Assembly: GCA_963402885.1 (NCBI GenBank)
Contig: OY727095.1
Coordinates: 19,349,001 to 19,413,000 of the forward strand
Source of the DNA: Antedon bifida
Taxonomy: Eukaryota > Echinodermata > Crinoidea > Comatulida > Antedonidae
Length of the DNA stretch: 64,000 bases
Reading direction: 5' to 3'
Shown: positions 4,882-61,560 of the stretch, piece by piece
Position numbering within the stretch: the first letter of the stretch is position 1
Layout: each line of letters starts with the position of its first letter
Position numbers and translations under genes: made by a program
The notes under the pieces: model-generated
Told to the model about the DNA's origin: nothing
What the model saw: the letters and a program-made list of their open reading frames with translations, nothing else
Database searches by the model: none

Positions 4882-7411
4882 ATGGACGATCAAAATCAAT
4901 CAATTTTACTAATTAATCACATGTTATCAAATAATTACCTTTTTTTATTACAAATCAACAACGCCAATCAACAGTTAAGTTTTTCTATAAATGAAAGCAA
5001 TTCCAATTTCAGAAGAGGACGCGTCCATCGTCGTGAGAGATTTTGTAGGCTGCAGCAACAAACCATCACGGCCCACTTGATCGCGGCGACCATCAGATCT
5101 TCAACGATCGAGCGAGGCCTATGGGCTCGAAACAGAGAGTATGGACGTTTATTTTGGACTTATGAAGTCAATCATTATAATAATCAAATTTTTCGTTCGC
5201 ATTTTCGCATGTGTCGCGATACATTTAATAATTTATGCGAGTTATTGAGGCCCGAGATAGAGAAGAGCGACACAAATTTCCGGCGATCAATCCCATATCA
5301 GGAACGAGTTGGAATCACTCTTTGGTGGTTGGCAACGCCAACCGAATATAGGTACTGTATTGTATCTATCTCTCTAGTGATTGATAATTTATTTCATTCT
5401 ACTATATGTCATACATAGGAATAACAAAGATTCCCTTCAATCAATCAATTAGGCCTAGGCCCTAGCCTAAATTAATTACTGAGATCAGCTCACTCCTTTT
5501 TGTAACTAAAAAAATATAGGCCTCCTACATTCTCTAAATTCTTTTACTCCTACCTTGGAATTAGATATATGTCCACTACATGAGTCAATAAAAAATATAA
5601 GGCTATATCAGAATTATTTCCTTTTTAATCTAGGCCCTAGGCCATATATGTGAGCCTACACGTAGCACCTACACACCGAGAAGTTAGAGTCACAAATGAA
5701 TGATATACAGCCGATGCGTGCAAATGCCAAGGGCTTTTGCGCGTCGTGAGGAAATTGTAACATTTTGTTACAATTTTCATCATCTGTGTTTGCGGGTCAA
5801 TAGTTTGCTTTTACTATGTTTACTAGGCCTATATAAACAAAACAAAAACTTATAAAAAAGATTTAATTTCCCTTATAATATGGCCCGTAATATGGATAGG
5901 CATAATGAAAATTCACTCTGCACCATACCATAATTGATAACTCAAAATGTTATTAGCTATATTACCCGACTATAACAAAATGCTTTTTTTTAAATTGTCA
6001 GGTCTCTGGCCAATATGTTTGGAATAGGAATATCGACGCTATGTACAATAGCACATCAAGTTGTGGCTGCCTTAAAGAATAGAGAGTTTCTTCAACGCTA
6101 TATTTCACTGCCAAAGGGTATATGCGATTTTTTTTTTTTTTTATTATAAAAATACAACATAGTTATTTTCCCCCTGAAAAAAAAACTTGGATCAGAAAAA
6201 TCGATTGTTTTTTCATAAAAATCTGTAATTTAAAAAAAAAAAAAGTCATATCTGGCCTATTCAAAGTTTTTTTTTTAATCCTCATTTTCCATGTTTTTGT
6301 GGGACAATACTGTACCTCTTTAACAATATTGGACAACTTATTTATTTTATCATTTACCAAATGGCATTTTTTATTTACAAATATACAGGTCAAAGATTAG
6401 ATGATACCATCAGTGGATTTGAACAGAAAGGTTTTCCACAATGTGCTGGCGCCATTGATGGTACGCACCTTCCGGTTCTCGGCCCATCAGAGAACAAGGC
6501 GGACTATCACAACAGGAAAGGATGGTACAGCATCATTCTTCAAGCCGTTGTGGACCATAAGTATAGGTACCATATAACAATTAATTTATAAGTTACTGTA
6601 ACTGGTATACTGTATCCTTAACAGTAACTGAATGATATTCTTTCACACACACACCATTCTTGATAAAATTTAACAGCTGATGTAAAAAGTATCAATAATG
6701 TATTTATAGCACTGTTTTTAAGGTTTCTTAATAATAATTTTACAGATTTACTGATATATATGCAGGATGGCCAGGTCGCACACACGATGCTAGGGTCTTT
6801 GCCCACTCAGCTCTGCCTGAATTAGCTGCCAACAACAATGGCCTACTCTTCAGTGCAGAGGTACATTTCTTAAACATGTTTGAATATTGCTATACATAAA
6901 ACATTTTATTTGACATGAAATGCAATTTAGATACTGTTCAGTACATAATATGTCATTTCCCCTTTTGTGTTTGTAGAAAAACAAGCAGTTGAGTGGGTTG
7001 AATGTCCCAGTGTGTTTAATTGGCGATCCTGCATATCCGTTGCAGCCATGGTTGATGAAAGGTTATATCAACAACAACAACCTAACTCCAACCCAACGTC
7101 ATTTCAACCGGCAATTAAGTTCAGCCAGAGTTGTAGTGGAAAACGCCTTTGGAAGACTTAAAGGGCGATGGAGACGACTACTTAAGCGCAACGACACCTC
7201 CACAATATTTTCAAGTGACATTGTTGCAGCCTGCTGTGTGTTGCACAACTTTTGTGAAATTCACAAAGATGTGTATAACCCACAGTGGGATGTGACAATA
7301 AATGAAGAGGTGCAGCATGGTTTGATTCAACCCGATGAAGATCCAATTAATGACCGACCTGAAAGAGCATCTGATATAAGAGATGCTATTGCAGCATACC
7401 TCACGATGTAA
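4882..7411 (+). CDS. HARBI1-like PIF/Harbinger transposase, five exons, apparently intact
   Basis: This is the DDE transposase of the surrounding element; it would cut and rejoin DNA at the terminal repeats in the nucleus. Exons are 4882-5351, 6002-6117, 6389-6566, 6746-6860 and 6977-7411. All junctions are GT-AG and the phases agree, giving about 437 residues without an internal stop. The N-terminal part has RLFWTYEVNHYNNQIFRSHF and a helical segment. The catalytic motifs are GAIDGTHLPV (first Asp), GWPGRTHDARVF (second Asp), IGDPAYPL and VVENAFGRLKGRW (Glu). The length fits HARBI1-like proteins. I chose the ATG at 4882 because it is the first in the frame just inside the terminal repeats. 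HARBI1 is also a host gene in vertebrates, but the terminal repeats and duplication make this a transposon copy. The splice sites are predicted by eye. Confidence 0.85.
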
Positions 7412-13974: not shown

Positions 13975-15414
13975 TATTTGCAATATTGTAACATTATCTG
14001 GGCAGCCGACTTTACCACTAATATCATGAAAATTTTTTAATTACAGAAACGAGTTGTAAGAATTATTTCTTTATCTCATTTTATTGCTCATAGTGAACAT
14101 TTAATAAGAAGTTAAACATTCTAAATATTTATGATCTACATAACTTACAAGTTTTATCTATTATTTATAGGTAAATATTTTTCAGATTGGGCTGATGTTT
14201 GTGGTGGTATCCCGCAAGGAAGCGTTGTTGGACCTGTTCTTTTCATTATGTTTATTAATGATATACCTTCTGTTATTTCTTCCTCTGTACGCATGTTTGC
14301 AGATGATACTAAATTGTATAGAGTAGTTAACACTGTGAATGATGCTCAAGTTTTACAAGAAGATTTAGAGAGAGCATGTGACTGGTCTGACAAATGGCAA
14401 TTACCCTTTAACGAGGGTAAGTGCAAAGTAATGCACTTTGGGAAGAAAAACAACAAGCATCTGTATGCCATGCGTGGTTTCTTATTGAATGAAGTTGATC
14501 ATGAAAAAGACCGCGGTGTTACTATTGACTCTAAACTTGTTTTTAATGTACATGTGGCAGATGATGTAGCAATGAGAGCAAATCGGAAGTTAGGCATGGT
14601 ATATCAAGCTTTCAAATTTTTAAATATGGATGGTTTTCTTCGTTTATATAAAGCTATTATTCGTCCGACCCTGGAATACTGCAACGTTGTTTTTAACTCA
14701 CTCCATTGTAAGGAGGAAGACCTATTGGAAAAAGTCTAAGAACGTGCCACCAAGCTTATTTTTTCCATTCGTCATTTACCTTATTCAGAAAGGCTGAAAA
14801 TTCTCAACCTACCTACTTTCGCATACAGAAGGCAAAGAGCTCATTTGATACAGATTTTTAAAATTTTACATGGAGTGGATAGTATTTCAGCTGACTCTTT
14901 TTTTGAGCTTGATGAAGATGTCAGAACACGTGGTCATTCTTTTAAATTAAAATTTAAGTTTTCACGCACAAATTGGATAAGGGACTCATTTGGTCGAAAA
15001 GCTATTATACTATGAAATTCGTTATCGGAGGAGGTAGTATCTTCAAGATCAACCAATCAATTTAAGTCAGGTCTTGAACGGGCATGGTCCAACCACCCTC
15101 TAAAATTTGCGCCATATTCAAGAGTTGATGTAATATCAAGAGGGGCTTATAGGCATGGCCTAACCTCGACTCCGGGCCCAGCAATGCTGAGCTCTGGAAA
15201 CAAGTAAAAAAGTAAGTAAACAAGTAAGTAAGTAAAGTAAATAATATATTGCCAATCTCTACCTCAAACATAAAGTACGTAACATTTATCATCTTAGAAA
15301 TACCAAAATATTGGAAGTACCATTTACGAGGCTTAAAAAGATTCAATTTTTTTACAATATATGGTCCTAAGTTATGGAATGAACTGTCTATAGAACAAAC
15401 TTGCTGTAAAAACC
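13975..15414 (+). pseudogene. LINE 3' coding region split by a younger LINE insertion
   Basis: Two plus-strand pieces look like one old LINE C-terminal region. The first (about 13975-14168) reads YCNIIWAADF and LQKRVVRIISLSHF, the thumb-region pattern of jockey/CR1-type polymerases. The second (about 15250-15414) reads FFTIYGPKLWNELS and CCKNLKDVL, the typical extreme C-terminus. Between them lies a separate plus-strand LINE fragment with its own repetitive 3' tail, and the second piece is ended by a TTAA MITE at 15419. The pairing of the pieces is inference. Confidence 0.5.
14172..15207 (+). pseudogene. 5'-truncated LINE (CR1/jockey-type) reverse transcriptase with GTAA-rich tail
   Basis: The frame opens within the polymerase domain: GGIPQGSVVGPVLFIMFIND, then VRMFADDTKLYR, the catalytic FADD box. 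It continues through WQLPFNEGKCKVMHFGK, LGVTID-like text (RGVTIDSKLVFNVHV), IIRPTLEYCNVVF and the C-terminal RATKLIFSIRHLPYSERLK. Two in-frame stops interrupt it (after LLEKV at about 14737 and at IIL*NSL near 15013), so the copy is dead. It ends in a (GTAA)n-like tail at about 15208-15245, the kind of 3' end seen in CR1/L2-like elements. It begins mid-domain, typical 5' truncation. Confidence 0.85.
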
Positions 15415-34711: not shown

Positions 34712-34883
34712 TTTCGCTTTCCATGGAAAGCGGACGTGTGACCTTGAAACCTTGAAGGAAAACTAATTAAAAGAACAATAACAAAGGCACCTGGCTAGCA
34801 ACGCATACCTTTGTGGATTTATTGTGTTTAGCATTCTTGTGAAGGAAGCTTCTACCAACAGTATCCTTACTTGTTTTGTAGCC

Positions 34884-36338
34884 ATGTCTGCTCGTAAAGC
34901 CGCAGCCTGTTCCGTGTGTGGCGGGCCCCGCCCGTCCACGAAGCTGGACCGCCATTTGGCGTGCCCGCGCTGCCGCAAATGCAGCCAATCTGCGACCTGC
35001 GAGGTATGCATACGCTGGCCTGCGGCGAAGTTCATTACCGCCGATGAGTGGGCCTTGGCGCACTCTAGCCCCCCTGGTAGAGCCATGTCTGTTAGCTCCG
35101 GGGTCGTACTCCCTGACCCGCCGCCTGTACCTCAGGTGCTAAGCCCGGATATGCTGAAATTAATATCAGAGCAAGTCAGTAAGACCCTAGAGGAGAGGGA
35201 GCGAATTAAAACTGGATCCTCCAGTGCACCTCTTCCCGTCCCCTCGCTTAACAATCCAGGTATCGAGGTGCGGGTCTGTGGGGATTCCACTGACATAGAT
35301 GATGGGTCGGAGCCTGAATTTGACGATGATACGCCTCTCCCGTCTGGACTTCAGCAGCTCGTCTCTAGGGCGCTACCGGGTATTCTTTCCCACTTGGGAA
35401 TCCCGTATGAAACACCTGATGCTTCTGGAGGTTCTCTGGGTGGTGGTCTTTGGGACTCGCTCTCCCAAACTGCGACGACCTCTAATGTGCCTGTTGTGGG
35501 GATCCACCCAGACTTGCTGAGACGAATTAACCGTCAGGCCAAAATATTAAGGACCGCTAAGGTCATAAAACCATCGGCCCGGTGCCTGGCAAGCACCTTC
35601 CCCGTTCCCGAAGACCAATTTAAAACAATGATTCGGGAACCACAGATACCCCGGGCCGCAAAGAATCGGCTCCGGGATGATCAGCAATTAAAGCCATCAG
35701 CGAACATCTTCCCGGATAAAACGCAAGCAATCCTGGAAAGTACCCTGCGCACCCACGATAGGGCTGCCCGGGAAGGGATCCGCGCTGTTAACATCTGCGG
35801 GATCCTCCTCTCATTCCTCTCGGACAATGAGGCGGCTCCGACGTTGGTCCCAGACGCCGTTACCATTCTCCGGGAATGTATGGGGCTTATTGCCGATCAG
35901 TTCAACACCGTAGTGGTCTCGGCAGGGGATGCCCGGCGCACAAACGTCTTGCGTGCGTCGTCTATTGATCCGGGTCATTTTGAACGGTTCATGGATTCCC
36001 CTTCCTTCCAGTCCGAAGATTTATTTTCCGGTCTGTTTGCATCAAGGGAAGAGGCTTGGGCCCGCGAGCTAGAGGCGCGTCGCCAAACCAATTCTAAAGC
36101 GTCTGGCGGCGTTAAGCGTCGTGACCGTCGCACTTCTCGCTCGCAACGCTGGGCCACTAACCCTTACCAGGTGCCAAGCCAACCGAGGCCTCCTCCTCAG
36201 CCACATTCCTCGTCTTCCATCCCACCTCTCATGGGACCTACTTACTCCCCCCGGCCCTTTCGGGCCAGTTCCCACCCGGCCCAACATGCCTCCCGTGGGG
36301 GAGGGCGGCGTCGGGGTCGCCGTGGGAACCAGAAGTGA
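34884..36338 (+). CDS. DIRS-like gag-type protein
   Basis: The frame is open for 484 residues from the ATG at 34884 (MSARKAAACSVCGGPRPS). The N-terminal 50 residues hold paired cysteines (CSVCGG, CPRCRKC, CEVCIRW), a zinc-binding pattern. The middle has an acidic segment (DIDDGSEPEFDDD), and the C-terminus is rich in Pro, Ser and Arg (GGGRRRGRRGNQK), as in nucleic-acid-binding gag tails. Coding extends upstream without a Met to 34824. The end overlaps the start of the polymerase frame. Its role as structural/gag protein is inferred from position before RT; no catalytic motif is seen. No stop interrupts it. Confidence 0.75.
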   Translation: MSARKAAACSVCGGPRPSTKLDRHLACPRCRKCSQSATCEVCIRWPAAKFITADEWALAHSSPPGRAMSVSSGVVLPDPPPVPQVLSPDMLKLISEQVSKTLEERERIKTGSSSAPLPVPSLNNPGIEVRVCGDSTDIDDGSEPEFDDDTPLPSGLQQLVSRALPGILSHLGIPYETPDASGGSLGGGLWDSLSQTATTSNVPVVGIHPDLLRRINRQAKILRTAKVIKPSARCLASTFPVPEDQFKTMIREPQIPRAAKNRLRDDQQLKPSANIFPDKTQAILESTLRTHDRAAREGIRAVNICGILLSFLSDNEAAPTLVPDAVTILRECMGLIADQFNTVVVSAGDARRTNVLRASSIDPGHFERFMDSPSFQSEDLFSGLFASREEAWARELEARRQTNSKASGGVKRRDRRTSRSQRWATNPYQVPSQPRPPPQPHSSSSIPPLMGPTYSPRPFRASSHPAQHASRGGGRRRGRRGNQK

Positions 36339-36339
36339 C

Positions 36340-37011
36340 ATTCCTGGGGATGGGCTCGGTTCTTCTGTAACCGAGCGGGTGGGGGGAAGATTAGGGATGT
36401 TCGCACAGGTCTGGGAGTCCATGGGAGTAGACTCATGGGTTGTAAGTACCCTGTACGCGGGTTACAGGATAGAATTCACCTCACTTCCGCATATGGGTCC
36501 ACAGAGGCCAACTCAAATTCCTTCCTGCCCAATCAGGAAGAAGGCCTTATTCGATGGGGTCAAAGAATTAATGCAGAAGGGAGCAATCTCACGAGTCCCT
36601 CTGACATCCCTTACAAAAGGCTACCTTTCTACACTATTTCTCACAGAAAAGGCATCGGGGGGTTGGCGTCCTATTCTCAACCTCCGAAGTTTAAATCAGT
36701 TTATAATCCCGGTAAGGTTCAGAATGGACACGCTGGTCACGGTCCTACGTGGCCTGTGTCCCAGGGACTGGGCAGCATCTCTAGACTTAAAAGACGCCTA
36801 TTTCCACATTCCCATTTCCCCAGAGGACCGTCATTGGCTACGGTTTCTCCTGGACGGGGAACTATACCAGTTCAGAGCCCTTCCGTTTGGTCTGTCCACT
36901 GCCCCACGGGTCTTCACTCGGGTAGTCAAGGCACTGGGGGCAGTATTCCACTCGATGGGGGTAAGAATCTTCATGTACCTGGACGATTGGCTAATTCTCG
37001 CAAATTCCAAA
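36340..37011 (+). pseudogene. DIRS-like reverse transcriptase, N-terminal two thirds, truncated
   Basis: The frame after gag reads TKGYLSTLFLTEKASGGWRP, ILNLRSLNQFIIPVRF, AASLDLKDAYFHIPI (first catalytic Asp), LPFGLSTAPRVFTRVVKAL and FMYLDDWLILANSK (catalytic YxDD box). This is the DIRS/Ngaro type of polymerase. At 37012 the text changes to the 95-bp terminal repeat, so the thumb region is lost here. The missing continuation (SQSPLFLGARLDLIRSL) is found on the minus strand ending near 39478, leaving about 25-30 residues unaccounted for. Confidence 0.85.
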
Positions 37012-37301
37012 CAATATGGACACCCCTCGAAAGGAAAATGGAATAGTCCAGGCGCCGTAGCGGGCCGTACAAACGTCTCTCACGCATGACATCGTCCTCA
37101 TATTCCGAGATCCACGTGATCACGGCGAGGGGAGGCGGGAGGGATTGCTATACAGGTAGGTATCTCACTCATAGACTACCAACACCACTGTTGGTTTGTG
37201 TAGTCTATTTCGTGAGATCCCTACCTGTATAGACTCTACATATGCCAGAGTAGCACCGGCATCAGGAGGAGGGCGTGATTGTGACTAAAACCAAACTTAC
37301 C
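37012..37301. repeat. displaced terminal region of the DIRS-like element
   Basis: It contains the second copies of the 95-bp (37012-37106) and 45-bp (37203-37247) repeats, plus a hairpin made of CTATACAGGTAGG and CCTACCTGTATAG. It lies between the two divergent element halves. Confidence 0.8.
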
Positions 37302-38350
37302 CTACTTAGAAGGCCGACAAATCGCCGACGCTACGGTCGCCTGGGACGAGACAACGTCCTGAAGGTAGCACGATGAAAAAGTGGTCTGAGCTCTCCACCA
37401 TGCCGCCGCTAAAATATCCGAAACGGGCACACCCCGAAATAACGCCCACGAAGCCACTGAGCCACGCACCTCGTGCATATGAGCTGGCGGCGGCAAGCGT
37501 GAAGATGCATACGCTGACTTGATGGCGGAAACGACCCAACGGGCTATCGTATCCTTAGAGGCGGGGCCATGGGGTTTTATTGTCGTCACAAACAGATGTG
37601 ACGTTCCGTTTCGTAAATGTTGCGTGCGATTAACATATATTTGTATCGCACGCACTGGGCACCAAAGCCTGTCTTCTCGCACAGAGGAGTGCGAGGAAAT
37701 TTTAGAAATAAAAATGGTTGGTGGAGAGTGATTCAGGGTTTGGGTCTTTGCTAAGAACCCTGCTCGGAAAGTGAGACGAACACCGTTGTTCTCAAACCGA
37801 ATATGGCCAGGGTCTAAGGAAAGTGCGTGAATCTCACCCTTACGCTTACATGACGCTGCGGATACTAGAAACGCAGTCTTAATAGAAACATCGAGCAGAG
37901 AAGCTGAACCAAGGGGTTCGTATGGCGGTTTTGTAAGGGCCTCAAGGACCGAGTTTAAGTCCCACCGGGGAAGCAAAGACCGCACGGGAGGTCGAACATT
38001 AAACATTCCTCTTATCAGCATCGATAGTTCTAAAGAGGAGGATACTGACGATCCGTCGGGAAACCTCGGTAATACTACCGCAATAGCTGACCGGTACCCC
38101 GCTATGGTTCTGACCTGGAGTCCCGACTCAAATAGGTCATGGAGGAACCGGGAGACTTCGCCTAGAGAGGCGGAATGAGGATCGATTTCATAACCGGCAC
38201 ACCATTGATAAAAACGCTTAAGGCGGCTGTTGTATAGTGTTCTTGTCGACTCCCGTCGAGACTGGGCTGCCAACAAGGCAGGCCCGTCTGGAATTCCTGC
38301 ACTTCTGAGGCGATTCCTGACAAGGGCCAGGCAGTCAGCGTCAGGGATTG
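37302..38350 (-). CDS. tyrosine recombinase of the DIRS-like element
   Basis: This is the phage-integrase-like enzyme that would integrate the circular DNA copy without an aspartic protease or DDE integrase. The minus-strand frame is open upstream to 39338, but recognisable recombinase text starts near 38330 with ADCLALVRNRL, then RRESTRTLYNSRLKRFYQW (core-binding region). The catalytic region shows AASCKRKGEIHAL (first Arg), MHEVRGSVASWALF (His-x-x-Arg) and AAWWRAQTTFSSCYL (Trp/His position and Tyr nucleophile). The complete R-HxxR-W-Y set is visible and the frame ends at a stop at 37302. The start is unclear because the frame overlaps RNase H. It might still be active, though the element is rearranged. 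Confidence 0.85.
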
Positions 38351-39478
38351 CAGGTTGTGAAGGCCCAGCCGGGCCCGGGATTGAACTAAGAGATCGGGCC
38401 GAATTGGCAGGGTCCTGGGCTGAGAATAAAGCAGACTCAGCATTGTGGGAAACCAAGTTTGGCGAGACCACCATGGAGCTACCAGGAGGATTTTGCATTG
38501 ATGGCGGCGAATGTGAGATATGACCAGAGGGATGAGGGAAAGAGGCGGAAAGGCATACGCCCACATCCCGTTCCATGAGATCGACAGGGCGTCGGAGGCC
38601 CAGGCCGTGGCTTCTGGGTACCGGGAGCAAAAAATCGGAAGTTGAGCATTCCGGTTCGTCGCAAACAGGTCGATGAGAGGTCGTCCAAACGTGTTGAAGA
38701 TCTGTTGGACGACGGCTGTCGATAACATCCACTCGGTCGGAAGGACAGAGCCCTTGCGACGGGAGAGGGCATCGGCAATCGTGTTGAGTTTGCCGGGAAT
38801 GTGAATTGCTTTTAGGTGGATCCCCTGCTGGTGGCACCAGTTTAGGAGCTGCCATGTGTAACAACACAGGGTTGGGGAGTGCGTCCCGCCCTGACGGTTG
38901 ATGTAAGATACCACCGTGGCGCTGTCGGACAGCACCAAAACAGCCTCCCCGTGACATAAGTGGAGCAGGCTGTGTAGAGTATTTGAGACTGCAAGAAGTT
39001 CTAGGACATTTATGTGGAGGGCTGATTCCAACATGGTCCAGGTTCCCGCTACCTGCTCGGAGGGCGCATGACCGCCCCACCCAGAGAGGGAGGCGTCGAC
39101 GGTGACTCGCACCGACGGAATAGGATCGGAGAAAGGTTTTCCCCCGTCCAACCCTCCTGGTTGAAGCCACCACTGAACGTGAGAAGCTACGAATGTATTT
39201 AGCGGGACCTGGGCCAGAATGTTTCTGGAGGAAGGGGAAAAATGATAAAGGAGGTGGAGTTGCATCGGACGCATGTGAAGTCGGCAGTCCGGAACTAAAT
39301 CTACGAAACTCGCAAGGTATCCCAGAACTTTCAGCCACATCAGGGCTGGAGATGATGGTCGGGACAACAGGAGTTTTATCGCTGCCCGACAGGTCTCTAT
39401 GCGAGCTTGTGATGGGAACGCCAGGGACCGAATGAGATCTAGACGGGCCCCAAGAAACAGTGGGGACTGAGACGGGGT
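38162..39478 (-). pseudogene. RT C-terminus and RNase H domain of the DIRS-like element
   Basis: Reading on - from about 39478: SQSPLFLGARLDL is the polymerase connection, followed by WLKVLGYLASFVDLVPDCRL. The RNase H domain then shows VTVDASLSGWGGH (Asp), INVLELLAVSNTLHSL (Glu), VLVLSDSATVVSYINRQGGT (Asp) and IPGKLNTIADALSRRKG (final Asp). A conserved tail follows (DLFATNRNAQLPIFCSRYPE, ending in LVAPWWSRQTWFPTML). The frame stays open to 38162, overlapping the recombinase. It is cut off at the 5' side by the rearrangement, so it is the displaced continuation of the polymerase at 36340-37011. Confidence 0.85.
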
Positions 39479-40250
39479 GAGAACTGATTTTTGATAATTG
39501 ATAATGATTTAATAAACGCCGACCTCACGTTCTGGCAAACGGTAACTGCAATGATGAAAACACAACAATATAACAGAAAATTCGCTTCAACTCTTTTCTC
39601 TAGGCTAGGCCAAGCTAGGCAAAATAGGCCTAAATTAAGCTACAATACAATATGAATATGATCTAAATAACAAGATAGATAAAAACGAGCAACTTACAAT
39701 AACTGATATCCACTAGGGGAACGGTATGTCCGTGTTGCAGTGTATTGTTAAGCTTTAAGTTTTATTAATTAAGTCAAGCAATATATTTTAATCTCTTCTT
39801 CAATTCAACCAAACAACTTTCGTCACCAAGGCTACGTGCGCGTACGCAAAAACACGTTGAGCCCTCAAGTAGTTAACATAATGCAAACGATTATAAAACA
39901 ACACACTCCCCCTATAGCGTTAACAATGCTATTAAATGATAATTAAGTCTTATGCCTCTTCTAAAAACAGCATCACTATCTCAGACACTGGTCATAGAAA
40001 CATCTTCGCCACTCCTTTTCTTATCATCTTTTGTTTGTTTCCTAATAAAAACCCTATTATTACTCGAATTATGCCATCATTCTTTAAACTATGTACACAG
40101 TTCTCTAAGATAAGTATATTTTTGTTTATATTGAATAAAATTAAAGGGAAATAATATTGTCGCCTGCATAGGTTAACCTGTTACATCTAGTCCTTATGTG
40201 TTGAATATAAAATAATGATGAAAAAAAACATTACTTACCAATCACAGTTA
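39479..40250. other. non-coding stretch after the DIRS-like element
   Basis: AT-rich, no recognisable gene. TAGGCCTA-type motifs occur near 39600-39630. The right flank of the rearranged element must start close to 39479, but no short duplication could be matched to the left side. Confidence 0.4.
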
Positions 40251-57559: not shown

Positions 57560-57775
57560 TAGGGTTAGGCCTACATACAGACCTAGGGCCTAGTAGCTAG
57601 AGAGAGAGGCATAAGTAGGGCCGGCCTACCTAGCTAGGATCCTAGGCCTACTACTAGGCCTAGCTTAGGCCTCTACTACTACTACTACTACTAACTAGGC
57701 CTACTAGTACTAGTAGAGGCCCTAACTATCTAGGCCTAGCCTATGCCCTCATATAGGCTAGTAATATAGCCTATA
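57560..57775. repeat. TAGGCCTA/(CTA)n cluster
   Basis: Dense irregular repeats of CTAGGCCTAG, CTACTACTA and TAGTAG directly precede the left arm of the palindromic element. A similar cluster (61010-61090) directly follows its right arm. Confidence 0.6.
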
Positions 57776-58718
57776 GTAGAGTAGAACTAATGAAAAAAAG
57801 GGGCCAACCTCAAAAAAATTGCAACAAAAGGTTTTTCAACGGATTTTGGTAGTATTGGGTGTACTAAATAACAGAAAAAAAGTCTCAAGAATTTTGACCA
57901 CCGGAAAGTGGTTTTTTTTCAAGATGGCCGCCAAAATAGATAAAACGTTAAAATGTCAATACCTCCTAAACTACTTGGTCTATTGATATGATTTTGGTAC
58001 CAAAATACTCAGAACATACATATTTATATTTGCCCTAATAGAACATTTTGGCCAAAAATGACCGGAAATGCTATTTCTTGCATGTTTGACCTTTGACCTT
58101 GATATGTTGTATCTTGGTAACAACTGACCGTAGGGAAACAAATTGTGACTCAAATTTTTCAGAATGTACATATTTACATTTATTGTAATGAGACATTTTG
58201 TCAAAAAATGGTTAGAAGTAAAGGTTATTGACCTTTAACCTTTATCTATGTAGAATGTCCATATCTCGGCAACTATGTGTGGTAGAGATTTAAAATTGGG
58301 CTCTAAATACTGAGCATATGCTTATTTATATTTACTCTAATGAAACAGTTTGACAAAAAATGACCAGAAACGACATTTTTTGATGATTGACCTTGATATG
58401 CTATATTTCGATAATGACTGACTAAGACATACTATTTATGCCTCAATTTGTTCAGAATATAATTATTTTTATTTCGTATAATGGTCTAATCTACCCATGG
58501 AATTAAGAGCTTTCCTGGGTAACTGTAATATTTATAAAGACTTTTAGAATATGAGTTCAAGTTCAAATTGTTCAGAACATACTGTATACATTCTTAATAA
58601 TAATAGTGAATAAAAAACCCGAAAAGTAAACAAAAACAAATATAATAATAATTTTTAATTTCTAATTACGGTATAGCAGCAGTTGATTGGATATTGTGCA
58701 TGTATTTAGTACGGCTTC

Positions 58719-59225
58719 CTAAACAACTTTTTTAACTTCGTCTTCATCATCGTCATCAATCTCTCTATCTACGTTGTTCCATTCTTCTAGTTGACACACT
58801 CCCCAAACTGAAGTACATGCCAATCCATAGCATCTACAACTGCAACATACAGTTTTACATCCAGTAGTACAGTTACAATGGATGATTTTCAAAAGTTCTT
58901 CTGAAGCAGCAGTTTCAATCGTCATTATTGGCACAAATGTTTTATTAAAAACTTCCCCGACTTGGTAGCATCCATGGTATTATCTTTCTTTATCCATTGC
59001 ATGATTTGATAGTATACTCTAAGACTGTGACATTTTGTAGCAGATGAGGTTGGTGGTAGTAGTTGTTGAGGTTTGATAAATTATTTACCCTCAGCAACTT
59101 TCTTATTAAACAGCTTGCATCTGTAGCTATTTGGGAAATCCAGTGACTTGGCTCCAAAACGAATAGACATGGCCTTTAATCCAAACTCCTCGATAGTTTG
59201 AAGTTTCTGATGCGGTTGAGTGAAA
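58719..59225 (-). pseudogene. C-terminal half of a PIN-like/CXC gene (left arm copy)
   Basis: On - the text runs TIEEFGLKAMSIRFGAKSLD, YRCKLFNKKVAEG, LLPPTSSATKCHSLRVYYQI, QWIKKDNTMDATK, VPIMTIETAASEELLKIIHC and then a cysteine-rich tail NCTTGCKTVCCSCRCYGLAC, ending in a Glu/Asp-rich segment. The spacing C-x-C-x3-C-x3-C-C-x-C resembles CXC (tesmin-type) zinc-binding motifs. I recall this order from multicopy invertebrate proteins whose N-terminal part has a FEN1/PIN-like motif. At least one stop and one frame change break it. Its function is unknown. Confidence 0.6.
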
Positions 59226-59324
59226 CTATCGGCACACATCAGTGTCATATTCTAGGTTACTTTCTATCAATTTATTGATTTATTTGCCTTCCTAAAGATG
59301 TCTTTAGGCTTTGAAGAGTGAGGG

Positions 59325-60010
59325 TGGAAACGGACTTCATATTTCATTACATCGTCTAGAGAGATTTGTCCTAACTGAATTTGATGGAAAGAAAGAAGAA
59401 TTCCTGTCAAGGCATGAGAACAAACACAAATTTATCAACATGCTTTCATATGAGCTATAGAAAAAAGAGTGGAGTGGTGGCTTGATGGTTATGATGCTTG
59501 GCTACCACTCCAAGGGTCCTGAGTTCAAGTCCCGTCACATGTCAGGATTTTTTCTAAGGACCAAATTACTCCACTCCCAAAGACTTGTAATAAGACTTTG
59601 TTTACGTAGAGCATCTTGTGTATATGTTTGTCTTGTGAACCTCTGAGGGTCCCTAATGATCAGCAATAGCTGGATGGATCACCCTCATTAAATATGGTTT
59701 AAAAAAAAACAAAAAAAGCGATGTTGACATTGCTCTGGCAACAGTTGAAGTCTCTGAACATAATACAGTAACTTTGATTGGAGAAGACACGGACTTACTG
59801 GTACTTTTACTGTATCATGTAAATACAACAAACCGAGAAATGTACTTCAGATTAGACAAAGGAAAAGATGGGCCTACTAGAGTGATTAATGTAACCAGAT
59901 TGAAATCTGTTTTAGGATATAAAATCATCCATTGTAACTACTGGATGTATGTTGCAGTTGTAGAAGCTATGGATTGGCATGTACTTCAGTTTGGGGAGTG
60001 TGTCAACTAG
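59325..60010 (+). pseudogene. central part of a PIN-like/CXC gene, split by a SINE
   Basis: The + text LERFVLTEFDGKKEEFLSRH and NKHKFINMLSYEL (to about 59455) is followed, after the SINE, by DVDIALATVEVSEHNTVTLI, GEDTDLLVLLLYH and REMYFRLDKGKDG. The paired acidic text (DVDIA..., GEDTDLLVL) resembles the metal-binding core of FEN1/XPG or PIN-type nucleases (E-A-D-A..., SEDSDLL). From about 59919 it runs into the right palindrome arm, where KIIHCN opens the CXC tail but soon loses its frame and stops at 60010. The segment that should link the two parts is missing here, although the left-arm copy retains it. Confidence 0.6.
59468..59711 (+). mobile_element. tRNA-derived SINE
   Basis: The 5' part reads AGTGGAGTGGTGGCTTGATG and GTTATGATGCTTGGCTACC, a box-A-like segment. 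GTCCTGAGTTCAAGTCCCG follows, matching box B (GWTCRANNC) of an RNA polymerase III promoter. The remainder is non-coding and ends in an A-rich tail (59701-59711). AAAAAAG occurs before (59461-59467) and after (59712-59718) and may be the target duplication, though it is low-complexity. The tRNA species of origin is not clear. It splits the coding text of the PIN-like gene. Confidence 0.75.
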
Positions 60011-61013
60011 AAGAATGGAACAACGTAGATAGAGAGATTGATGACGATGATGAAGACGAAGTTGGAACAGTTGTTTAAGATGCCGTACTAAATACATGCA
60101 CAATATCTAATCAATTGCTGCTATACCATAATTAGAAATTTAAAAGTTATTATTATATTTGTTTTTGTTTACTTTTCGGTTTTTTATTTACTATTATTAT
60201 TAAGATTGTATACAGTATGTTCTGAACAATTTGAACTTGAACTCATATTCTGAAGGTCTTTATAAATATTACAGTTATTTGATTCCCAGGAAAGCTCTCT
60301 ATTTCATAAGTAGATTAGACCATTATACGAAATAAAAAATAATTATATTCTGAACAAATTGAGCCATAAAAGGTGTATCTCAGTCAGTCATTATCGAAAT
60401 ATAGCATATCAAGGTCAATGGTCAAACATGTCGTTTCTGGTCATTTTTTGTCAAACTGTTTCATTAGAGTAAATATAAATAAGTATATTCTCAGTATTTA
60501 GAGCCCAATTTTAAATCTCTACCACACATAGTTGCCGAGATATGGAAATTATACACAGATAAAGTTAAAGGTCAATAACCTTTACTTCCAACCATTTTTT
60601 GACAAAATGTCTCATTACAATAAATGTAAATATGTACATTCTGAACAATTTGAGCCATCATTTGTTTCCCTACGGTCAGTTGTTACCAAGATACAACATA
60701 TCAAGGTCAAAGGTCAAATTGTCAGAAATGGTATTTCCGGTCATTTTTGGCCAAAATGTTCTATTATAGCGAATATAAATATGTATGTTCTGAGTATGTT
60801 GGTACCAAAATCATATCAATAGACCAAGTAGTTTAGGAGGTATGGACATTTTAACTTTTTATCTATTTTGGCGGCCATCTTGAAAAAAAACACTTTCCGG
60901 TGGTCGAAATTCTTGAGACTTTTTTTCTGTTATTTAGTACACTCAATACTACCAAAATCCGTTGAAAAACCTTTTGTTGCAATTTTTTTGAGGTGAAACC
61001 TTATTTCTACTCT

Positions 61014-61560
61014 ACTACTAGGCCTAGTACTATAGTAGGCCTACCAGCCAGTAGCCTACTAGGGCCTAGCCTAGGCCTAGTAGTAGGCTTTTTTTTAGGT
61101 GAAAACCTACGTCTACGAACGACGCCAATGAGGCAGGAAAGTTGGTTTTATTTTGGTAGGGAATTCGATAATAGAAGGGTAGGTCTAGGCTAGAGCGGAA
61201 CCATCTCAGAGGCGCCTACTAGAGGACGGGGTAGGCTAGCTAGCTAGGCTGATTATTCGCGCGCAAATTGAAACAGACTACAGTACAGGCCTGGCTACGT
61301 CGTGTGGATGGGTGGAAAGGGCTAGCTTGCATGAAAGACAATCCTGATGACATTGATTTATTTTTTGGGGTAAATTAGTTGCAATATATTATATATTTTC
61401 AAATCCTAATCATAATTTCGTACATTTAAAGCAAAAAGTTGATAAATATGTTAAATATTGTATCAGTATTTCTACTTACGGATACAGCGGTTGATTCCAG
61501 TAAAACACAAATACCAATTTACGGATATGAATTAGGGATCAGCTCAAAAAGTTTATAATG
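61014..61560. other. right non-coding part of the Harbinger element
   Basis: A TAGGCCTA-rich stretch followed by AT-rich sequence leading to the right terminal repeat. No gene seen. Confidence 0.45.

Follow-up and report, generated by a model that had tools for sequence, protein, structure and literature searches.

We show here that a 3244-bp near-palindrome in a 64,000-nucleotide stretch of the genome of the crinoid Antedon bifida (the window; positions 19,349,001 to 19,413,000 of contig OY727095.1) is a complete mobile element, with termini TAGT...ACTA, at least 47 copies in the genome and 3-bp target site duplications. Very probably it is a palindromic, non-autonomous offshoot of an AcademX-like cut-and-paste DNA transposon, one with a single large protein that has an XPG/FEN1-type nuclease and a Cys-rich tail at its C-terminal end. 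Most likely it was formed when a terminal inverted repeat (TIR) was extended through the 3' part of the gene, and it is moved in trans. The features of the window copy are collected in Table 1.

Table 1. Features of the palindromic element, in positions of the window. Residue numbers are those of the 1552-codon frame of L043, a relative described below.
Feature	Position	Strand	Remarks
Left target site duplication	57771-57773	.	CTA
Complete non-autonomous palindromic element	57774-61017	.	3244 bp; boundaries common to 20 fetched copies
Left terminus, long-spacer type	57774-57806	+	terminal repeat of 16 bp, TAGTAGAGTAGAACTA, followed by a spacer that exceeds that of the right end by 10 bp; from alignment of the ends
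Left inverted arm	57807-58889	+	aligned with 59921-60994
Diverged ~150-bp subterminal repeats, left arm	58001-58601	+	whole or partial units at 58001-58060, 58085-58236, 58228-58369, 58379-58483 and 58563-58601
Left gene remnant	58719-59251	-	C-terminal middle region and Cys-rich (CXC-like) tail, frameshifted; tblastn, L043 residues 1395-1474 and 1484-1552
Possible upstream piece of right remnant	59308-59460	+	SRHENKHKFINML; by eye against L043 residues near 1239-1253
SINE-like insertion at the centre of the window copy	59472-59718	+	box-B-like GAGTTCAAGTCC and A-rich tail (by eye)
Right remnant, XPG-type active-site piece	59720-59920	+	DVDIA ... GEDTDLLVLL; 40% to L043 residues 1276-1315
Right inverted arm	59921-60994	-	aligned with 57807-58889
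Right remnant, Cys-rich tail	59946-60078	+	internal deletion joins the tail to the XPG piece
~150-bp subterminal repeats, right arm	60196-60793	-	counterpart of the left-arm repeats
Right terminus, short-spacer type	60995-61017	-	reads inward as TAGTAGAGTAGAAATA; from alignment of the ends
Right target site duplication	61018-61020	.	CTA

An earlier note on this DNA had described arms of about 1.1 kb in inverse orientation, coding of the CXC type at each arm's inner end, complementary parts of a gene at the centre (the C-terminal half on the minus strand to the left, the GEDTDLL region on the plus strand to the right) and no visible transposase. All of this was borne out: the arms are 92.9% identical over 1092 columns, the coding pieces lie where they had been placed, and the window element itself holds no transposase core. 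The near-palindrome had been set at 57776-61013, an extent that alignment of the copies refines to the exact boundaries given in Table 1, with a CTA flank on either side. The gene pieces read outward from the centre, the layout expected if the 3' part of a gene had been duplicated in inverse orientation. The SINE-like insert between them yields no tRNA with ARAGORN, and an Rfam search of the window gave no match. The insert is absent from the diverged palindrome L029, where the reading frame by eye continues in frame through the site, and L030 has the same gap; thus the palindromic form probably predates the insert.

A genome scan with the pattern of the element's ends gave 83 matches, and the reversed control none. 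Seventy-four of the matches form 37 pairs, spread over 11 of the 27 contigs. Of these pairs, 19 measure exactly 3244 bp, 17 fall within 3236-3267 bp and one spans 2480 bp. Among the nine unpaired matches, seven lie in diverged palindromes and one in L035, inside a copy whose second end went unmatched. Since two more palindromes (L041 and L042) were reached via the coding piece, at least 47 copies of the window family were located (37 + 7 + 1 + 2). The diverged palindromes are L029/L030, L031/L034/L036/L037, L033, L041 and L042. Twenty further fetched copies are 99.4-99.8% identical to the window copy, with the similarity stopping at its two boundaries or a few bases from them. The remaining unpaired match, in L032, was rejected as an element copy, having neither a partner end nor arm homology, and is taken as chance or as a solo remnant: it consists of 19 bp that match the element's short end (L032:349-367) with no element behind it, ~150 bp from a Cys-rich stretch that by eye resembles the end of a metallothionein gene. 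At L041, an uninterrupted 620-codon frame of a LINE-like reverse transcriptase (L041:2-1861, by eye) adjoins the diverged palindrome.

The spread of the family appears in the differences among its copies. Twenty-four of the 37 paired copies were read, the window copy among them, and the 17 of exactly 3244 bp were compared with one another (the other seven of the 24 complete copies read were omitted for their different length). The 136 comparisons gave a median difference of 0.25% and a maximum of 0.37%, and the spread was therefore recent. Five columns of the 17-copy alignment divide the copies 9 versus 8, a pattern that suggests at least two source copies.

Target site duplications were read wherever both ends could be placed, that is in 31 of the 35 sequences examined. 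Exact 3-bp duplications flank 30 of these 31 copies, and in the 31st, L034, the locus stops after two matching duplication bases. The 30 matching duplications, read on the locus strand, represent 21 different trinucleotides. As the end-placing script favoured candidate pairs with a matching duplication, a separate scan with controls served as a check. Over 340 kb, exact TAGT ends with a 3-bp duplication occurred in 32 cases, of which 30 are window-family copies, one is L044 and one (L034, 4521-8830) is apparently due to chance, versus 0-3 cases for each of seven other tetranucleotides; apart from that chance case, no further TAGT family was found in the fetched DNA. The earlier note had held that a single copy, with no boundaries in common and no duplication, would speak against a mobile system; what we find is at least 47 copies with shared ends and 3-bp duplications.

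The nature of the gene pieces becomes clear in comparison with L043, whose frame is uninterrupted. The coding pieces of the window element match residues 1276-1315 and 1395-1552 of this frame, and those of L029 match residues 1239-1552; the possible upstream piece at 59308-59460 has no separate tblastn match in the window copy. A profile built from the C-terminal parts of L043, L044 and L045 gives a modest match to Exonuclease 1 chains in the PDB (4 distinct sequences) over ~230 positions, with a whole-sequence E of 5.6e-4, a domain E of 0.0014 and a mean accuracy of 0.61, and the FDG, xADx, EDTD and GCD motifs line up in the alignment. A phmmer search of the PDB with the single L043 protein gave nothing, Pfam gave only an insignificant match for the L043 protein and none for that of L044, with no XPG match in either, and NCBIfam gave none in L043. 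The CXC label was given on the cysteine pattern and on a sub-threshold match to Pfam TCR in L045 (10.5 bits, cut-off 23.5). Upstream of the nuclease, the acidic positions D454, D457, D624, D931 and E935 are invariant and constitute a candidate DDE core; profile A3 of this core region found no match in the PDB, and six short patterns from the L043 protein found none in IMG/VR. Judged from their sequence, the gene pieces are predicted to come from the C-terminal end of a transposon protein of roughly 1500 residues, where they would encode its XPG/FEN1-type nuclease and its Cys-rich tail.

Two relatives carry this gene intact. L044 (C10:3282526-3289368) is a complete element of 6843 bp with a 1458-codon frame, an AAA duplication, ends TAGTCYATGGGATTTAG and inverted repeats of 686 bp that are 99.3% identical and end before the gene. 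L043 measures 6023 bp and has a CAA duplication and inverted repeats of 122 bp (91%) with ends TAGTCTGGTAGTTGAA. All three elements start with TAGT and have the ~150-bp subterminal repeats in common: the subterminal unit of the window element is 72% identical to L043 over 110 bp (E 8e-16) and 72% identical to L044 over 152 bp (E 6e-24), and between the window arms and the L044 repeats the identity is 70% over 379 bp (E 7e-40). In the more distant L045, with a frame of 1501 codons, no inverted repeats or subterminal units were evident in the partly fetched flanks. Because the intact frames of L043 and L044 lie inside their own TIRs, with TAGT ends, 3-bp duplications and the shared subterminal unit, the XPG-CXC gene is most likely the transposon's own protein rather than cargo, and proteins of the L043/L044 type are putative transposases.

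This group is large in the genome, given that a protein search found at least 49 matches with 30 of 567 candidates scored. Among these scored candidates the matches cluster at C10:16.6-17.2 Mb and C11:12.6-13.6 Mb, where the transposon might have its graveyards or its control loci. A genome scan with the end pattern of L044 gave 80 matches, and one with a second, gapped pattern 75 (reversed control, 2 matches). Of the 75, 31 are unpaired and 44 make up 22 pairs; one pair spans all 6843 bp, and the others measure 1.6-2.7 kb. L044 thus seems to have produced non-autonomous derivatives as well.

How would the palindrome have been built? The ancestor would have carried TIRs, and one of these would have been extended inward through the 3' part of the gene, creating an inverted duplication, most simply through gap repair that copied the wrong (opposite) arm. 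The N-terminal part of the gene would have been lost, the product would have retained one long-spacer and one short-spacer end, and a transposase supplied in trans would still move the palindrome, leaving 3-bp duplications. The repeats reach ~1.1 kb in the window type and further into the gene in L029 and in L031 and its relatives, where both arms carry the middle and the tail of the gene. The earlier note had offered a duplication of the 3' region of the gene, inverted head to head and later spread, and this describes the build correctly; it is half of the answer, as the product is a mobile element too. We infer both the mechanism of the duplication and the identity of the helper. A search with the XPG piece, in which all 70 of 70 first-look candidates were scored, found no close full-length parent: the best 46 rows, all of at least 74% identity, belong to palindromic copies; ranked by E-value, the rows that follow outside these copies reach 42% and 39%. 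The helper would therefore either be absent from this assembly or be a less close relative, for example L044.

The absent parent could also be explained if the mobile element were at the same time a trans-silencer of its own autonomous source, with transcripts of the inverted gene tail folding into hairpins that feed small-RNA silencing, in the manner of Mu killer of maize. The inner Cys-rich coding is inverted in both arms, with more of the gene held in both arms of other palindromes. However, in the window copy no more than ~130-170 bp of coding sequence overlap in inverted orientation, and the absence of a parent may be a matter of chance or of the assembly, so that we regard such a second role as unlikely. 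Less probable still is the capture of a host PIN/CXC gene, as cargo, by a foldback-type transposon from another superfamily, a reading that is largely contradicted. The long, internally repetitive inverted arms and the lack of a transposase core in the element would fit a captured gene, which would need a transposase of that other superfamily between TAGTAGAGTAGA ends; yet intact frames of like kind sit in elements with matching ends, duplications and subterminal repeats, and the long repeats of L044 stop before the gene. The earlier note's foldback-type transposon accordingly survives as a mobile, foldback-like element, but its cargo does not. Finally, palindromes are a known assembly hazard and the window holds a single copy, but a false inverted duplication at one locus is contradicted, and its probability made negligible, by 37 end pairs on 11 contigs, flanks that differ among the 20 fetched copies and the variety of the duplicated trinucleotides.

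The palindromic element has unlike ends. When the tips are aligned, each shows a terminal repeat of 16 bp that a spacer separates from an inner block. In all three families (window, L044 and L043) the spacer of one end exceeds that of the other by 10 bp; in the window element the distance to the inner block is 34 bp at the long end and 24 bp at the short. Among the 31 window-family pairs read, the spacers differ by 10 bp in 30 and by 9 bp in the remaining one, L040. Relative to the gene, the long-spacer end is 3' in the window family and in L044 but 5' in L043. In the window family each of the 37 pairs joins a short to a long end, although the pairs do not count as independent, given the common ancestry of the copies; in the L044 family, again among copies of shared ancestry, 20 of 22 pairs are mixed, one is short/short and one joins a long end to an intermediate spacer. 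Of the 75 pattern matches in that family, 71 have the short or the long length and 4 another. The L044 repeats are 99.3% identical up to ~30 bp from the tips, and the tips still differ. This evidence comes from three families, with the window and L044 ends related to each other, and as shared descent explains much of it, the independent cases of unlike ends number at most three.

RAG/Transib elements have two-spacer (12/23) ends, a 5-bp duplication and a RAG1-like transposase. Window-type elements likewise have a short-spacer and a long-spacer end about one helical turn apart, although here the 10 bp follow a 16-bp terminal repeat, the duplications are of 3 bp and no RAG-like domain is recognised. 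We tentatively propose, as a possibility that we hold to be somewhat less likely than its opposite, that XPG-nuclease transposons may have a two-spacer rule of their own, in which the transposase would pair one short-spacer with one long-spacer end, 10 bp (a helical turn) apart, in convergence with the 12/23 rule of RAG/Transib; this might be why tips remain unlike on palindromes with homogenised arms. The 10-bp difference would then have a role in end recognition. Its occurrence in three families offers a testable idea of why unlike ends might be required, a question that to our knowledge has so far been tied to RAG-type recombination. The sole short/short pair among the 22 of the L044 family (C1:13479929-13481494, 1566 bp) is either a natural exception that speaks against a strict two-spacer rule or the outcome of recombination. 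Membership in RAG/Transib was rejected on the 3-bp duplications and on Pfam, which gave no match to a RAG-like domain in the L043 and L044 proteins.

Other superfamilies were likewise set aside. PIF/Harbinger elements have a DDE_Tnp_4 transposase and target a 3-bp TWA, whereas the 30 duplications comprise 21 different trinucleotides, and the L043 and L044 proteins have no DDE_Tnp_4 match. CACTA (EnSpm) elements have CACTR termini, in place of which TAGT...ACTA is found here. The AcademX nuclease is of the XPG type. Our elements resemble AcademX in a nuclease that forms part of the transposon protein (the profile match to Exonuclease 1, E 5.6e-4) and in 3-bp duplications (30 of 31 window-family copies, AAA in L044 and CAA in L043); the window element differs as a palindromic derivative without a transposase core. 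A passage of PMC10045372, which cites Kojima 2020, gives duplications of 3 or 4 bp for AcademX, in the Academ superfamily, and of 9 or 10 bp for AcademH, and ties this difference to the helicase and nuclease. By the described nuclease and duplication traits we place the elements beside AcademX, of which they are likely members; the Academ passages of PMC4455052 and PMC10799480 contain nothing decisive. Among the titles and beginnings of abstracts listed in the literature search, none described an XPG-nuclease transposon with palindromic derivatives or with unlike ends; full texts and other papers may differ.

Arms lengthened by internal sequence are, in contrast, already described for Galileo of the P superfamily. 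According to passages of PMC3573991, non-autonomous Galileo copies in Drosophila mojavensis have TIRs lengthened by inverted internal sequence, the longest TIRs occur in copies without a transposase frame, and tandem repeats in the TIR were suggested to be extra transposase binding sites. The window element is similar to Galileo and Foldback in its long, internally repetitive arms (~1.1 kb, with several ~150-bp repeats) and, as far as those passages go, to Galileo in having recruited internal sequence into the arms in inverted orientation in non-autonomous copies. It differs from Galileo as portrayed there in its 3-bp duplications and XPG-nuclease protein, against 7-bp duplications and a P-type transposase, and in that the recruited sequence includes the 3' coding part of the gene itself. 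Membership in the P superfamily was rejected on the 3-bp duplications and on Pfam, with no P-type or THAP match in the related proteins.

These results tie a multicopy gene family, not recognised by Pfam, to a mobile element that has built palindromes from the tail of its own gene. L044, with its intact frame and nearly identical repeats, is a candidate helper. Palindromes of such high identity could also serve as substrates for chromosome rearrangement. The window contains further mobile sequences. At 34782-39524 lies a G+C-rich (about 0.50-0.53) retroelement with RVT_1 on the plus strand (E 1.9e-15) and, on the minus strand, a 740-codon frame with a sub-threshold phage-integrase SAM match (E 0.0058), and this retroelement looks DIRS-like. 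An open frame of 301 codons at 54887-55792 matches DDE_Tnp_4 (E 1.2e-24) and is PIF/Harbinger-like, another DDE_Tnp_4 piece is found at 6977-7411 (E 9.5e-20), and a reverse transcriptase fragment (RVT_1, E 5e-10) occupies 14125-14739.
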